Shown here one piece after another: positions 1,899 to 7,933 of a stretch of 64,000 nt of DNA. The DNA is from Marinifilum sp. N1E240 (GTDB lineage Bacteria > Bacteroidota > Bacteroidia > Bacteroidales > Marinifilaceae), in the NCBI RefSeq assembly GCF_009295825.1, contig NZ_WHKF01000001.1, forward strand, positions 275,088 to 339,087, given 5' to 3'. Below the pieces are notes generated by a model, which saw nothing but the letters and a program-made list of their open reading frames with translations, was not told the DNA's origin and did not search any database. A program made the position numbers and the translations under genes. Positions within the stretch are counted from its first letter, which is position 1. Each line of letters begins with the position of its first letter.

Positions 1899-3116
1899 AT
1901 GATCAGCGATTTAAAAGGAACTTTTTCCCAAATCAGCAATAATAATAAACGATCAGCAATTCGTGAAATTTTGAAATTGACTCAAAACCCTGAGATCATT
2001 TCATTTGCCGGTGGACTGCCAGCTCCAGAATCATTTCCTGTAGATGCTTTGGATAGCATTGTTTCGGATATGTTGCGAGAAGAAGGTGCTGCAGTATTAC
2101 AGTACGATGCAACCGAAGGGGTTACAGAGTTGAGAGAATTGCTTGTAAAAAAGTATCAGAACGAAGGTGTTCAATGTTCTTTGGATAATATGATTGTAAC
2201 AACAGGATCTCAACAAGGTCTTGACCTGGTAGGTAAAGTTTTTGTGAATCAGGGTGATGTTGTGATTTGTGGTTTACCTTCGTACCTAGGCGGTATTAGT
2301 GCTTTTCAGGCTTATGGAGCTAAAATGGAAGGTGTGCCAATGGATGAGCAGGGAATGAGTGCTGAGCTATTGGAAGCGAAGTTGATTGAATTGGCTGAAG
2401 AAGGAATCAAACCAAAGTTCATTTATGTAATTCCAGATTTTCAAAATCCAACAGGTATTACCATGCCTGAATCTCGTCGATTAGAGATTATCGCATTGGC
2501 TCACAAATATGATGTGCTGATTGTTGAGGATTGTCCGTACAGAGAAGTACGTTTTGATGGTGAGCCTCAACGTATGATGTACGATTTGGATAATGATGAT
2601 CATGTAATCACCTTGGGAACTTTCTCGAAGATTTTTGCTCCAGGATTCCGTATTGGATGGATTTTAGGTCCTAAAGATGTGAATGAAAAGATTGTTGTTG
2701 CCAAACAATCGGCTGATTTGTGTACGCCAACTTTTGTTCAGAAAATCGCCATTCGTTATATGAATTCAGGTGTTTTTGAATCGAACTTGCAAAAGACTAT
2801 CGATTTATATCACCAGCGAAGAGATGTGATGTTGGCTGAGATGGAGAAGTGCATGCCTGATTGCGTGAAATGGACTCGTCCTGAAGGAGGAATGTTCCTA
2901 TTCATCACCTTACCGGAACATATGGATGCATTGGAATTGTTCCACAAAGCAATTGAGAAGAAGGTGGCTTTCGTTACCGGAAATGTATTCTACTGCGATG
3001 GTGGTGGAACCAACACAATTCGCTTGAATTTCTCATACGTAAACAACGAAAAAGCAATCGCTGGTATTCAACGATTAGCTGAGATCATTGAAGCTGAAGT
3101 AATGGCAGAGGCTTAA
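1899..3116 (+). CDS. PLP-dependent aminotransferase, class I/II (2-aminoadipate/LysN-like)
   Basis: Fold-type I aminotransferase of 405 residues, predicted cytoplasmic. The Schiff-base lysine is Lys244 in GTFSKIFAPGFRIGW. Upstream are VIPDFQNPTG (the conserved N-P substrate/PLP contact) and the Asp/Tyr region VEDCPYREVRF, and the carboxylate-binding Arg is in NTIRLNFSYV near the C-terminus. The pattern fits the group that includes 2-aminoadipate aminotransferase (LysN) and broad-range aromatic/branched-chain enzymes. There is no GntR helix-turn-helix domain, so it is not a MocR regulator. It lies directly after porAB, suggesting it supplies 2-oxoacids to that enzyme. The exact substrate cannot be read from sequence. 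Confidence 0.88.
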   Translation: MISDLKGTFSQISNNNKRSAIREILKLTQNPEIISFAGGLPAPESFPVDALDSIVSDMLREEGAAVLQYDATEGVTELRELLVKKYQNEGVQCSLDNMIVTTGSQQGLDLVGKVFVNQGDVVICGLPSYLGGISAFQAYGAKMEGVPMDEQGMSAELLEAKLIELAEEGIKPKFIYVIPDFQNPTGITMPESRRLEIIALAHKYDVLIVEDCPYREVRFDGEPQRMMYDLDNDDHVITLGTFSKIFAPGFRIGWILGPKDVNEKIVVAKQSADLCTPTFVQKIAIRYMNSGVFESNLQKTIDLYHQRRDVMLAEMEKCMPDCVKWTRPEGGMFLFITLPEHMDALELFHKAIEKKVAFVTGNVFYCDGGGTNTIRLNFSYVNNEKAIAGIQRLAEIIEAEVMAEA

Positions 3117-3284: not shown

Positions 3285-3321
3285 TTTTGAGTAATTTTTC
3301 CAAAAATTTACCCAACCAATC

Positions 3322-5346
3322 ATGAAGGAATTCTCAACAGCTTGTCCGCGTAACTGCTACAGTACTTGTAGTATTAAAGTACGATTAGAAGATGACAAAG
3401 TAATTGGAATTGATCCACATTCCGAAAATAGAGCAACACCTGAAGGTCCTTGTATTAAAGGTTTGGCTTATGTGGAGCGTGCCAATTCTAAGGATAGAAT
3501 TTTGCATCCATTAAAGAGAATATCAGAAGGGAATTATGAGCGGATTTCCTGGGAGGAAGCTTTGGTTACAATTGTTGAAAAACTGAATTTCTGCAAGGAA
3601 AACTACGGTGTACATTCTGTTTTGTTCTTTGCAGCAAGCGGTATGTCGGGTTTATTGAATGGTGTTAGTTCAAACTTCTGGAAACTATTTGGTGGAGCAA
3701 CCACGACTTACGGGAATCTTTGTTGGCCTGCGGGTTTGGAGGCAACACGTTTGACCTTAGGAGCAAACAAACACAATGCTCCCTGGGATTTGGAGAATGC
3801 AAAGCTGATATTGCTGTGGGGAAAGAATCCAGCTGAGACCAATATTCAGGAGATGATTCCTTTGGAAAAAGCACAGGAAAAAGGAGCAAAACTATTGGTG
3901 ATTGACCCACGAAGAACACCTTCTAGTGAGCGAGCCAATTCTCTGTTTCAGATTAAATCGGGAACCGATGGAGCTCTGGCATTAGGTATTGCTCGAGAAT
4001 TGATTCAAAATGATTGGATTGATAAGGAATATATAGAAAATTATGTAATCGGCTTTGAGCAATTCAAAGAGCGAGTTGAAGAGTACAGCTTAGATAAAGT
4101 ATCAGATATTTGTAGAATTTCGGTTGATGCCATTAAAGATTTGGCTAAACAAATTGGAACAACCGATGGGATGACTTTGATTCCGGGATATGGTTTGCAA
4201 CGATATGAAAATGGTGGACAGACCACACGTTGTATTCTTGCACTATCGGTGATTACAGGAAATATTGGGAAACCAGGTGCTTGTTTTCATTATGCAAATC
4301 TTCAAAGCTACGTGTTCGACGATTTGAAAGAGCCGGAATCTTATTTCCCGGGATGCGAACATCCAAGTTTCAGAAGAAAAATATCGGTTGCCAAACTGGG
4401 TGAAGATTTGTTGAATATTAAAGATCCGGAAGTAAAATTTATTTGGGTAGAGAGAGGAAATCCATTATCACAAAATCCAGATACCAATAAGATTAGAAAG
4501 GCGTTTCGAAAAGCAGATTTTAGAGTGGTTGTGGATCAGTTCATGACAGATACAACATTGGAAGCAGATATTATTCTACCAGCTAAGAATATGTTTGAGC
4601 AATCGGATATCATTGGTTCGTATTGGAATCCTTATGTACAGCTAAAGCAAAAAGTAATGGAACCTGCTGGTGAAGTTAAGCCTGAGACGGAGATCTATTA
4701 TCTATTGGCAAAGAGAATGGGATTCACCAATGAGGAGATCAAAGATAACATACCCGAACCTACAGATGAGGCAATAGAAGAATACTTGAATGGATTTTTG
4801 AAAGATTTTCCAGAATTGAGTTTGGAGAAATTGAAACAAGGACCGAAACTGGCAAACTCATTTGAAGAAATTCCATTTTCAGATCATAAATTTCCTACAT
4901 CATCAGGCAAAATAGAACTGTACAACGAACAAGCAAAAGAAATGTGGGGAGTTGATGCCTTACCGGATTATGTGCCATTGTCTGAGCAAAACGAGTTTTC
5001 TTTGCAGTTGATCTCACCCAATTCGAAGAACAGAATTCATTCACAGTTTGGGAATTTGAATGTGATTAAGCAATTTGAACCCGAAGCATATCTTTTTGTA
5101 CATCCATTGGATGCTGAAGATAAAACAATGAAGAATGGTGAAAAAGTGGTGATTTACAATCATCAGGGAAGAGCTGAGGTAAAACTACAATACGATTTGG
5201 GATTGCGAAGAGGGAATGTAGTATTGACTAATGGTCATCAATCACATCTGGGAGCTGCGCCAAACTTGTTTACCAAAGGATGCGAAACAGATATGGGACA
5301 CGGAACCGCCTTTCACAATACTTGGGTTGACATTAAAAAGCTGTAA
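3322..5346 (+). CDS. Molybdopterin oxidoreductase catalytic subunit (DMSO reductase superfamily), no Tat signal
   Basis: Catalytic subunit of a bis-molybdopterin guanine dinucleotide (Mo or W) enzyme, 674 residues. Cys8, Cys12, Cys16 and Cys44 form the N-terminal [4Fe-4S] motif. The central part has LILLWGKNPAETN and LLVIDPRRTPSSERA (cofactor-binding Rossmann segments), and the C-terminal barrel domain starts near residue 560 (SPNSKNRIHSQFGN). Cys134 in YGNLCWPAG sits where Cys or Sec metal ligands occur in formate dehydrogenase and acetylene hydratase; it is my candidate ligand. The protein begins directly at the FeS motif, with no twin-arginine signal, so it should stay in the cytoplasm. 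The next gene, 2 bp away, is its fused FeS/membrane partner. The substrate is unknown; DMSO, polysulfide, thiosulfate or another acceptor are all possible. Confidence 0.88.
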   Translation: MKEFSTACPRNCYSTCSIKVRLEDDKVIGIDPHSENRATPEGPCIKGLAYVERANSKDRILHPLKRISEGNYERISWEEALVTIVEKLNFCKENYGVHSVLFFAASGMSGLLNGVSSNFWKLFGGATTTYGNLCWPAGLEATRLTLGANKHNAPWDLENAKLILLWGKNPAETNIQEMIPLEKAQEKGAKLLVIDPRRTPSSERANSLFQIKSGTDGALALGIARELIQNDWIDKEYIENYVIGFEQFKERVEEYSLDKVSDICRISVDAIKDLAKQIGTTDGMTLIPGYGLQRYENGGQTTRCILALSVITGNIGKPGACFHYANLQSYVFDDLKEPESYFPGCEHPSFRRKISVAKLGEDLLNIKDPEVKFIWVERGNPLSQNPDTNKIRKAFRKADFRVVVDQFMTDTTLEADIILPAKNMFEQSDIIGSYWNPYVQLKQKVMEPAGEVKPETEIYYLLAKRMGFTNEEIKDNIPEPTDEAIEEYLNGFLKDFPELSLEKLKQGPKLANSFEEIPFSDHKFPTSSGKIELYNEQAKEMWGVDALPDYVPLSEQNEFSLQLISPNSKNRIHSQFGNLNVIKQFEPEAYLFVHPLDAEDKTMKNGEKVVIYNHQGRAEVKLQYDLGLRRGNVVLTNGHQSHLGAAPNLFTKGCETDMGHGTAFHNTWVDIKKL

Positions 5347-5348
5347 TC

Positions 5349-6674
5349 ATGGAAAAGAACTCATTCATATTCAACACCAACAGATGCGTTGGCTGTAATG
5401 CTTGCGCAGCAGGTTGCAGCATTGAAAATGGTACTGATTTAATGATCAATTGGCGCGAGGTAAACACCGGAAACAAAATTAAACATCCAGGATTGCCAGT
5501 CTTTCATTTCTCATTGGCTTGTAATCATTGTGAGGATGCTCCTTGCATGAAACATTGCCCTGCTTTGGCTTACACTCGTGATGAAAAAACGGGAGCTATC
5601 ATCCATCATGCCGAGGCTTGCATCGGATGCACCTATTGTACCTGGGCGTGTCCTTACGATGCACCAAAGTTTAATCCTGCAACGAATATTGTAGAGAAAT
5701 GTAATTTTTGTGTCGATAGAATATCTGATGGGAAAAAGCCAGCTTGTGTTGAAGCCTGTCCGGTAGGAGCATTGGATTTTGGACAATTGATCTTGAGTGA
5801 TCAGGATAGAGTTACACCCGGTTTTGTGGATATGGGAATCAAACCATCCATTCAATTGATTCCTTTACGGGAAGAAAATACTGCACCCAAAATTGAGAAT
5901 ACGGACCAGATAGATATTGATGAGAAAAAGATAGAGGAGTGGTCACCTAAGCCAAAAGATAAGGTAGCACTGGATAAAGAGTGGACATTAGTTTTGTTTA
6001 CATTGGCAGTTGCCGGATTGGTAAGCTGGCAGGCGGCATATTTAATGGGAGCCATAGAAATGAAATTGATTCCTTTTGCCATAGTATCTGTTATATCCAT
6101 TGCATTAACATCACTTCATATTGGAAAAAAGCTGCGAATGTGGCGATTCATTCTTAATCTAAAAGGCTCCTGGTTAAGTCGAGAAATATTTTCTTTTTCT
6201 GTTTTCCTAGGATGTACAGGGTTGCAGTTGATTACCGAAAATCAGCTATTTGGCTATGTAGCTTTGGCTTTTGGAATCTTTAGCTTGATCTCTGTTGATA
6301 TGGTTTACAAATTATTGCAGCGAAAAGATGGTATTCCAGTGCATTCAGGAATGGTAAGTCTTACAGGAATTTTGTTTTTTGTTTGGCTGATCGAAGTCCC
6401 AATTGTTATCGAACTAATAATTATATTAAAAGGAAGTTTATACATTGCGAGGAAAGTATCATTACGACAATTAAGAGTGAACTATTTTCCTGCTCTTTCG
6501 TTGGTAAGAATCCTCTGTTTATTACTTCCATATATTTTATTGGATATGCAATGGGAATTGAGCTTGCCAATTTCCTTAGCAATTATATATGCAGGAGAAT
6601 TAATCGATAGGGCAGAATTTTATTATGAATCGGATGTGATTACACCAGAGAAACAGTTACGAATTACGAATTAA
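5349..6674 (+). CDS. Fused DmsB-type ferredoxin and DmsC-type membrane anchor subunit
   Basis: Electron-transfer partner of the preceding molybdoenzyme, 441 residues. Residues 1 to about 145 carry four cysteine quartets (CVGCNACAAGC, CNHCEDAPCMKHC, CIGCTYCTWAC, and CNFC with CVEAC), enough for four [4Fe-4S] clusters as in DmsB. After an acidic linker, residues about 212-430 form roughly seven or eight hydrophobic segments resembling the quinol-binding anchor DmsC. In enterobacteria these are two proteins; here they are one chain. Electrons would pass from menaquinol through the anchor and clusters to the catalytic subunit on the cytoplasmic face. That direction, and quinol oxidation rather than reduction, are inferred from the family. 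Confidence 0.88.
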   Translation: MEKNSFIFNTNRCVGCNACAAGCSIENGTDLMINWREVNTGNKIKHPGLPVFHFSLACNHCEDAPCMKHCPALAYTRDEKTGAIIHHAEACIGCTYCTWACPYDAPKFNPATNIVEKCNFCVDRISDGKKPACVEACPVGALDFGQLILSDQDRVTPGFVDMGIKPSIQLIPLREENTAPKIENTDQIDIDEKKIEEWSPKPKDKVALDKEWTLVLFTLAVAGLVSWQAAYLMGAIEMKLIPFAIVSVISIALTSLHIGKKLRMWRFILNLKGSWLSREIFSFSVFLGCTGLQLITENQLFGYVALAFGIFSLISVDMVYKLLQRKDGIPVHSGMVSLTGILFFVWLIEVPIVIELIIILKGSLYIARKVSLRQLRVNYFPALSLVRILCLLLPYILLDMQWELSLPISLAIIYAGELIDRAEFYYESDVITPEKQLRITN

Positions 6675-6734: not shown

Positions 6735-7901
6735 ATGAAAAAAATAAACGCTAACCACACACCGCTTTACCGTGAAGCGGGATTCAACCTAAAAGATTCA
6801 ATAACTGCAAAAGAAGCTTTTGCGGCAGAATTGGATCATCCGCACGAGCCAGAAAACTATATCTATTCTCGATACAGAAATCCAACCACAGTTGCAGTTG
6901 AGCAACAGATTATGGAATTGGAAGATTGCAAATGGGCTTTATTGGTAGAAACAGGTATGGCTGCTATCGATGTGGCAGTATCTGTTTTTCAGAAAGGAAA
7001 AGATACGCGACCATGGCTGTTCTTTCATGAGATATATGGTGGTACCAATTCGTTTATTGATACGGTTTTAATTAAGCGACGTAATTTGGATGTACACCGT
7101 TTTTATGCCAATGATGGTTTGTATGATTTCGAGGAGTTGGAACGCATGCTAAAGGAAATTCAACCTGAATTCCTGTATCTCGAAGCAGTTTCGAACCCAA
7201 TGTTGATTGTAGCGGATGTAAAGCGCATAATGGAATTGGCAAAGAAATACGACTGTAAAATTATTGTTGACAATACATTCGGAACACCATATTTGTGGAA
7301 GCCATTGCTGGATGGTGCTGATTTGGTCATCCACTCTGCAACCAAATACATGAGCGGACATGGAAATATTACAGCAGGTGTAATTTGTGGTAACGATGAG
7401 GAATTGATGAAAGAAGCCATTGAGTATCGCAAATGGGCTGGTCATTTCTTGAGTCCTGATGATGCTTACCGTTTGGGATCACAATTAAAGAGTTTCGATT
7501 TGCGCTTTAAGCAGCATTGCGATAATGCATTGGCGCTTGCAGATTACCTTCAAGAGCATCCTAAAATTGATGAGGTATTGTATCCAGGTTTGGAATCTCA
7601 TCCTACACGAAAAGAAGCTGTTGCTTTATTTGGCAACAAAGGCTTTGGCGGTATGGTCACTTTCGATATCAAAGGAGAATCGGATGAAGACAAACGTGAA
7701 AAATGCAATCGCTTTATAGCTGCCCTGGAAGAAACAATTCCACTAGTGCCAACACTTGGCGAAGTAGATACTATTCTGTTACCTGTAGAACCTGTTTGGG
7801 GAGCAAAATATCCACTACCAGGAACCATTCGTCTTTCGGTGGGAATTGAGAATATTGAAAAATTAAAAGGGTGGATTGGAAATGCTTTGGAGGAAATGTA
7901 A
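6735..7901 (+). CDS. Cys/Met metabolism PLP enzyme (cystathionine gamma-synthase / methionine gamma-lyase family)
   Basis: Trans-sulfuration family enzyme of 388 residues. The PLP lysine is Lys204 in HSATKYMSGHGN. Other family marks are SRYRNPTTVAVEQQ near the N-terminus, VDNTFGTPYLWKPLLDGAD before the lysine, and PGTIRLSVGIENIEKL at the C-terminus with the carboxylate-binding Arg. Sequence alone does not separate gamma-synthase, gamma-lyase, beta-lyase and O-acetylhomoserine sulfhydrylase. Placed behind a molybdoenzyme of the family that includes DMSO reductase, a role in organosulfur turnover is conceivable but speculative. A palindrome separates it from the upstream operon, so it may have its own promoter. 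Confidence 0.87.
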   Translation: MKKINANHTPLYREAGFNLKDSITAKEAFAAELDHPHEPENYIYSRYRNPTTVAVEQQIMELEDCKWALLVETGMAAIDVAVSVFQKGKDTRPWLFFHEIYGGTNSFIDTVLIKRRNLDVHRFYANDGLYDFEELERMLKEIQPEFLYLEAVSNPMLIVADVKRIMELAKKYDCKIIVDNTFGTPYLWKPLLDGADLVIHSATKYMSGHGNITAGVICGNDEELMKEAIEYRKWAGHFLSPDDAYRLGSQLKSFDLRFKQHCDNALALADYLQEHPKIDEVLYPGLESHPTRKEAVALFGNKGFGGMVTFDIKGESDEDKREKCNRFIAALEETIPLVPTLGEVDTILLPVEPVWGAKYPLPGTIRLSVGIENIEKLKGWIGNALEEM

Positions 7902-7905
7902 AATA

Positions 7906-7933
7906 GTAGGGTCACGACATTTCGTGACCCTAC
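7906..7933. repeat. Short palindromic repeat (GTAGGGTCACGA type), copy 3, perfect
   Basis: Perfect 12-bp inverted repeat: GTAGGGTCACGA at 7906-7917 and TCGTGACCCTAC at 7922-7933 with a CATT loop. It starts 5 bp after the Cys/Met enzyme stop, between that gene and the convergent rmuC. It could act as a 3' end for either transcript, but lacks a clear T-run. Confidence 0.8.

Follow-up and report, generated by a model that had tools for sequence, protein, structure and literature searches.

Gene layout and composition of the pair

The window analysed here, a stretch of 64,000 nucleotides from Marinifilum sp. N1E240 (contig NZ_WHKF01000001.1, positions 275,088 to 339,087), carries two adjacent forward-strand genes, which encode a molybdenum/tungsten-bis(pyranopterin guanine dinucleotide) (Mo/W-bisPGD; MopB) catalytic subunit of 674 amino acids without export signal (3322..5346, +) and, after a gap of 2 bp, a single chain of 441 amino acids in which an electron-transfer domain is fused to a membrane anchor (5349..6674, +). 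The pair is confirmed as a real, conserved two-gene complex, and it was not described in the open-licence PubMed Central (PMC) literature searched for fused DmsB-DmsC chains, for such enzymes in Bacteroidetes or Marinifilaceae, for SoeABC and for uncharacterised cytoplasmic MopB proteins or complex iron-sulfur molybdoenzymes (CISM); a search under the name MopB_3/cd02766 gave no paper. The reading frame of the catalytic gene is closed upstream by a stop at 3292, 10 codons ahead of its first ATG, and therefore no twin-arginine translocation (Tat) signal can be added to its product.

In the catalytic subunit, Pfam recognises Molybdop_Fe4S4, Molybdopterin and Molydop_binding, and the structure model has a predicted local distance difference test (pLDDT) score of 92.1. 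Each cysteine of the FS0 [4Fe-4S] motif (Cys8, Cys12, Cys16 and Cys44; 3343..3453, +) is at least 90% conserved among 51 aligned alpha proteins, which comprise 45 of the 82 listed and six from E. coli or plasmid records, and Pfam, alignment and model together identify the MopB subunit with FS0 motif that characterises a CISM. The predicted metal ligand, Cys134 (codon 3721..3723, +), is invariant in those 45 proteins (45/45); it occupies the column of FdhF residue 140 in a 50-row alignment, where DmsA and BisC have Ser, and is paired with the Cys of acetylene hydratase in a pairwise alignment. The NarG row of the 50-row alignment shows a Cys, whereas the known NarG ligand is the adjacent Asp. 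At the level of sequence, the catalytic subunit is a MopB protein that has Cys in the ligand column and carries an FS0 cluster motif.

Neither chain exceeded the cut-off of any NCBIfam family among the models listed. The top score of the catalytic subunit was for Fdh-alpha (297 bits against a cut-off of 666), and the DmsABC cut-offs were missed (TIGR02166, 294.2 against 777.7 bits; TIGR02951, 142 against 214.1 bits). The fold search did not discriminate, with formate dehydrogenase, Nap, TorA, Arr, Psr, Aio and acetylene hydratase all at Z 33.9-38.8 among the 50 rows listed, and the Foldseek matches were likewise mixed. The best Protein Data Bank (PDB) sequence match was an F420-dependent formate dehydrogenase and the second acetylene hydratase; PDB, family and literature searches returned no close homologue whose substrate has been demonstrated. 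A formate dehydrogenase in the cytosol, linked to quinone, would agree with the Fdh-alpha score, with the best structural rows, which are formate dehydrogenases, and with the best PDB match, but the score is far under its cut-off, the subunit is separate from FdhF in all four trees described below, and the fold matches span many subfamilies within a few Z units. Moreover, the formate dehydrogenase active site has a His and an Arg next to the Cys or selenocysteine, and the corresponding FdhF positions His141 and Arg333 are Trp135 and Asn326 here in the 50-row alignment, and we regard this identity as highly improbable.

The 441-residue chain gave a Fer4_11 match and a marginal DmsC signal in Pfam, the latter at 22.8 bits against a cut-off of 22.3 with no single stretch significant, and the DmsC model, searched against all six frames of the genome, found no match at E 0.001. 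As this signal is weak, the kinship of the anchor rests on the model helices, the structural match to PsrC and profile comparisons. The model has eight long helices, mostly with pLDDT >80, in the anchor (aa 208-426; 5970..6626, +), whose N-terminus is predicted to lie inside. The best solved match is PsrC (2vpw_C; Z 15.3, root-mean-square deviation 3.6, 230 aligned), and since bd oxidase, an unrelated-looking helical protein, comes close to it at Z 14.1, fold alone would not decide the kinship. Profile comparison matched aa 208-323 to E. coli DmsC (E 4.1e-09) and aa 208-321 to the plasmid anchor of locus L150 (E 1.2e-10).

Among 41 aligned fused chains (41 of the 42 listed, picked for at least 380 residues of the fused query and thus all fused by choice), the 16 cysteines of the ferredoxin domain (aa 1-147; 5349..5789, +), His257 and Glu279 are invariant; the 16 cysteines predict the content of a four-cluster iron-sulfur (FeS) subunit. 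The stretch from His257 to Glu279 (HIGKK...SWLSRE; 6117..6185, +) holds the putative quinone site, in which His65, Glu87, Ser62 and Ser82 of DmsC correspond to His257, Glu279, Thr254 and Ser274, the DmsC quinone-site residues being those given in PMC8076601. Model, PsrC match, profiles and mapped quinone residues agree in pointing to an NrfD/DmsC-type quinone-binding anchor.

The composition proposed in an earlier note on this DNA is borne out by these results: the catalytic subunit starts at its cluster cysteines without a Tat signal, and a signal missed upstream, which the note had named among the findings that would refute it, is ruled out by the in-frame stop; the partner is one chain joining a DmsB-type ferredoxin to a DmsC-type anchor; and Cys134 replaces Ser as the candidate ligand. 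The 2 bp gap stated in the note holds for the Marinifilum window and is not universal, as the two genes are separated by ~120-550 bp in many Marinifilaceae.

Distribution, membrane orientation and phylogenetic placement

A scan of a genome collection with the fused chain yielded 79 loci, 31 of which (L065-L095) matched over the whole or nearly the whole chain, with single open frames of 428-495 aa covering the match. The catalytic gene adjoins the fused gene on the same strand in 30 of these 31 loci, while the contig of L089 begins just before the fused gene. The fused chain itself was the query for the 31 loci, so that split relatives may also exist; for two other loci (L036 and L037) the query was the catalytic subunit, and in both its neighbour is a fused chain. 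Among named relatives Marinifilum is nearest, the fused chain of L065 being 87% identical. Counting the source genome, a full-length fused chain is present in 25 of 115 relative genomes, and a catalytic subunit of at least 50% identity in 3 of 395 phylum-wide genomes.

Other gene arrangements were seen among more distant relatives. In four Bacteroidota loci (L038-L041), MopB relatives of ~30% identity are followed by a protein of 490-516 aa that is not an FeS protein, the one in L038 having only a sub-cut-off GDSL-lipase match. Another Bacteroidota alpha relative (L042:635-3663) has a Tat-like N-terminus, and the adjacent gene falls into one cluster with the EamA-type transporter gene that adjoins the pair in L078. 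Fusions of an FeS domain to hydrophobic segments lie beside a MopB protein of ~940 aa in Acidimicrobiia (L099, 5965-10365; L101; L104), and eight hydrophobic segments follow the FeS domain in L099 and L100. The FeS domains of three of these loci (L099, L101 and L104) fall with PhsB-type proteins (98/95), apart from the Marinifilum-type fused chain, so that their fusion is apparently of separate origin, which suggests that FeS-anchor fusion arose more than once, also in Actinomycetota.

Membrane orientation was assessed by comparing the number of Lys and Arg residues in the anchor loops of the ferredoxin side with that in the loops of the opposite side, the helices being taken from the model and both ends left out. 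The Marinifilum anchor has 11 on the ferredoxin side against 1, and the same sign was observed in 41/41 fused chains (means 11.7 and 1.5). The opposite distribution, 2 against 8-11, was found in 6/6 exported-type anchors, namely E. coli DmsC, YnfH, Vibrio DmsC, Proteus, L149 and L150; export of these controls is assigned by an RR motif for Proteus and L149, by family name for Vibrio, by kinship with L149 for L150, where the catalytic gene is truncated, and, for the E. coli controls, by the Tat export of DmsA and YnfEF. The SoeABC-type anchor of Azospirillum (L179), the single SoeC-type control, showed 9 against 0, as in the fused chains. From the loop charges and the missing Tat signal, the anchor is predicted to face the cytoplasm, inverted relative to exported DmsC, with the quinone-site His and Glu on the inner side. 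An exported reductase of the DMSO or selenate type with a missed signal would account for the marginal DmsC signal and the sub-cut-off DmsA-family scores, but is scarcely credible given the stop 10 codons upstream, the Cys in place of Ser and charges opposite to those of exported-type anchors.

Four trees of the DMSO reductase superfamily, one of the checks proposed in the earlier note, were calculated with 50, 42, 38 and 27 rows, long-branch or near-duplicate rows being omitted, and the groups for approximately unbiased (AU) tests were picked after the first tree. The catalytic subunits of the fused loci, from Bacteroidota and Ignavibacteriota, form one clade (100/100) in all four. Its neighbours, also Cys-ligated, are solo proteins of Clostridia, Actinomycetota and Proteobacteria together with a Tat-bearing three-gene plasmid complex (L149); support for these neighbours as a single sister group varies, with 92/80 in the 50-row tree, 84/85 in the 38-row tree and a split in the 27-row tree. 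This larger Cys-ligated group joins DmsA and BisC with 100/99 in the 42- and 38-row trees and 100/100 in the 27-row tree; with NarG included, in the 50-row tree, the set containing NarG has 100/99 and the set of DmsA, BisC and the Cys-ligated group only 80/51. Joining the larger group to PhsA-type rows was rejected (p-AU 2.2e-05), as was joining the fused clade to SoeA, represented by a single row (p-AU 0.00135). The catalytic subunit is thus on the DmsA/BisC side in its own supported clade, separate from SoeA, PhsA, formate dehydrogenase and acetylene hydratase.

This placement bears on two further explanations. In the first, the complex would run in reverse, as in SoeABC, oxidising a cytosolic compound (sulfite, a thiol or another metabolite released by the neighbouring enzyme dependent on pyridoxal phosphate, PLP) and passing electrons to the quinone pool. 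Such oxidation fits the predicted orientation and the SWLSRE loop, both shared with the SoeC-like anchor of L179, near xsc, but the position outside the SoeA clade speaks against it, as does the description of Marinifilaceae as fermenters with thiosulfate, DMSO, arsenate and metals as potential acceptors (PMC9765461); we consider it unlikely, though a serious candidate. In the second, the enzyme would be of the acetylene hydratase kind, non-redox or dehydroxylating, and use the anchor for activation only. The second-best PDB match and the Cys common to both proteins favour this, but acetylene hydratase (its row lacking 94 residues) groups with a Gordonibacter protein (95/96), across a 100/99 branch from the fused clade, and the four conserved clusters and quinone residues would imply sustained electron transfer, which makes the second explanation very unlikely. 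Catechol dehydroxylases have been reported as closest to acetylene hydratase (PMC7028382).

The published superfamily phylogeny describes a Ser/Asp-ligated clade and unnamed branches, with best matches resembling acetylene hydratase, Psr or DmsA, that apparently use Cys (PMC10100899). The fused clade may be one of these branches, and the Cys trait alone is therefore not new. Cys-ligated MopB genes were also found in other plasmid settings: those of Streptomyces and Agrobacterium vitis plasmids (L153:1352-7050; L156:694-6630) are without an FeS partner and stand in a conserved order of iron-containing redox enzyme, dioxygenase dependent on 2-oxoglutarate and Fe, dapF, MopB and aldo/keto reductase, which looks like a small biosynthetic cluster; those of Methylophaga and Thioclava plasmids (L157:3480-8329; L158:3477-8530) are followed by a 4Fe-4S protein of ~100 aa, an FAD-type reductase and a molybdenum cofactor gene (moaA or glp).

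Neighbouring genes and the proposed reaction

PLP enzymes lie on both sides of the pair in the window (1899-3116 and 6735-7901), as the earlier note had stated, and the flanking holds only in part elsewhere: the downstream gene was found to accompany the pair in a single subclade, two members of which (L076 and L078) lack the upstream aminotransferase. The downstream gene (6735..7901, +), a Cys/Met-metabolism PLP enzyme, is likely the third gene of the unit in this lineage, judging from Pfam and the neighbourhoods of relatives; it lies 31-413 bp after the pair in 17 of 18 near loci, the contig of the 18th stopping 247 bp past the pair. Among these 17 are L079 (Marinilabiliaceae) and L078, a Lutibacter metagenome-assembled genome (MAG) without the upstream aminotransferase and 2-oxoacid oxidoreductase genes, whose PLP gene and pair may reflect transfer or MAG contamination. 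A palindromic, terminator-like hairpin after the PLP gene (7906..7933, -), detected by consensus scan only, may mark the end of the transcription unit.

At a PLP-gene threshold of E 1e-60, 19 of the 115 genomes hold both the fused chain and the PLP gene, 6 have only the fused chain and 2 only the PLP gene; of the 19, at least two (G079 and G111) carry the two genes on different contigs, and because the genomes are related, the association is weaker than it appears. The source genome has three PF01053 members over cut-off, the downstream enzyme and two others, one of which also exceeds the O-acetylhomoserine sulfhydrylase cut-off; the downstream enzyme is under the cut-off of all 25 NCBIfam models listed. 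No shared function emerged among the scanned neighbours of distant pairs (SiaC, DUF5916, histidine kinase and others). Three other Molybdopterin-domain proteins are encoded in the genome, NapA over cut-off and two PhsA-like proteins below cut-offs, and no TorD/NarJ-type chaperone (PF02613) was found in it.

On this evidence, the pair is probably a quinone-linked complex iron-sulfur molybdoenzyme facing the cytoplasm, most likely reducing a small cytosolic sulfur or other organic compound. The anchor would be upside down relative to exported DmsC, bringing the quinone site and the active site both to the inner side, and electrons would run between the menaquinone pool (menaquinone being the quinone of this group), the four clusters, FS0 and the metal. 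With both half-reactions on the inner side, the redox step would be electroneutral and should build no proton gradient, so that a role in redox balance or in the metabolism of an intracellular compound would be likelier than classical respiration of an external acceptor. The substrate would be made or used by the adjoining PLP enzyme, with reduction the favoured direction; electroneutrality, direction and substrate class are points that we infer.

Several observations weigh against this explanation. Pairwise alignment to the F420-dependent formate dehydrogenase sets Cys134 on a Cys four residues before selenocysteine, and the ferredoxin half of the fused chain is poorly modelled, with low pLDDT. 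The charge counts vary slightly with the alignment (DmsC 3 or 2 against 8; SoeC 12 or 9 against 0), and the anchors of four Tat-bearing, formate-dehydrogenase-like loci (L110, L113, L115 and L118) have 10-11 against 7-9, which is not the exported pattern; these anchors belong to another family, are poorly aligned and were left out as SoeABC controls, the L110-L118 group lying near NapA/FdhF and N-terminal RR-type Tat motifs being present in L110 and L118. None of the 13 more distant loci, three of which have less than 2 kb of downstream sequence, showed the PLP gene next to the pair; two genomes of 99% completeness (G027 and G034) have the fused chain without a PLP match at the above threshold, and G006 has the PLP gene without the fused chain. 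Finally, the Ser-coordinating enzymes on this side of the tree include known S- and N-oxide reductases (PMC10100899), so that a plain sulfoxide reductase is disfavoured by the Cys ligand.

A bolder form of the cytoplasm-facing explanation, which we hold to be rather improbable, would be that an exported respiratory enzyme of three genes was turned round in the membrane by natural evolution: the metal-subunit lineage, clusters and quinone site would have been kept, the charges flipped and the anchor fused to the ferredoxin, and the complex would now serve a cytosolic quinone-linked reaction new to this superfamily, in partnership with a C-S lyase-type PLP enzyme dedicated to it. For anchors that are homologous and share the quinone-site His and Glu, opposite orientations are predicted, each matching the side of its catalytic subunit, and the evolution of inverted respiratory complexes thereby becomes testable with ordinary topology reporters. 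The complex further points to a branch of Cys-ligated proteins, on the DmsA/BisC side of the superfamily, for which family, PDB and literature searches found no assigned substrate; the marine bacteria concerned are reported to play a key part in mineralising organic matter (PMC9765461).

Comparison with known systems

Inward orientation had been claimed in the earlier note as a departure from DmsABC-type enzymes; it stands as a prediction from the missing Tat signal and the loop charges, and is not new as such, because SoeAB has been hypothesised on the inner (N) side with SoeC inverted (PMC8076601) and SoeA and bSreA are tabulated as cytoplasmic and Cys-ligated (PMC10100899). The Marinifilum pair would accordingly resemble SoeABC, a sulfite:quinone oxidoreductase, in ligand, location and orientation as given in these two sources. 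The SoeABC-type genes of an Azospirillum plasmid (L179:1460-8437), found near xsc (sulfoacetaldehyde acetyltransferase), further resemble it in showing no evident Tat signal and in having an anchor of DmsC type, with an SSWLSRE loop and a matching distribution of charges, but their SoeA has 1000 aa and belongs to another clade, and B and C are separate genes.

PsrABC/PhsABC share the Cys ligand, and among solved structures it is PsrC that the anchor matches best; they differ in being periplasmic (PMC10100899) and in a catalytic subunit of another clade, in keeping with the rejected PhsA grouping. The complexes of Melioribacter roseus in the excerpts of PMC5492636 and PMC3534657 are of the Psr/Phs and Ttr types and not the fused complex, and the Psr sulfate reductases of Salmonella (PMC12636705) were set aside as near relatives because they retain the Ser.

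The three-gene complex of an E. coli IncF plasmid (CP027641; L149:5836-9457) is among the Cys-ligated neighbours of the fused clade and shares the CPRNCYDTC motif and CW at the ligand, but has a Tat signal, separate B and C proteins and exported-type anchor charges. Its IncHI1 plasmid counterpart (L150:4303-6319) retains only the C-terminal part of the catalytic subunit, downstream of IS26. DmsABC and YnfEFGH, which are Tat-exported, have in common with the Marinifilum pair a DmsB-like four-cluster protein, an anchor homologous over the first four helices and the position of the catalytic subunit on the DmsA/BisC side, whereas they differ from it in the Ser ligand of the DmsA row, in separate genes, and in opposite anchor charges.

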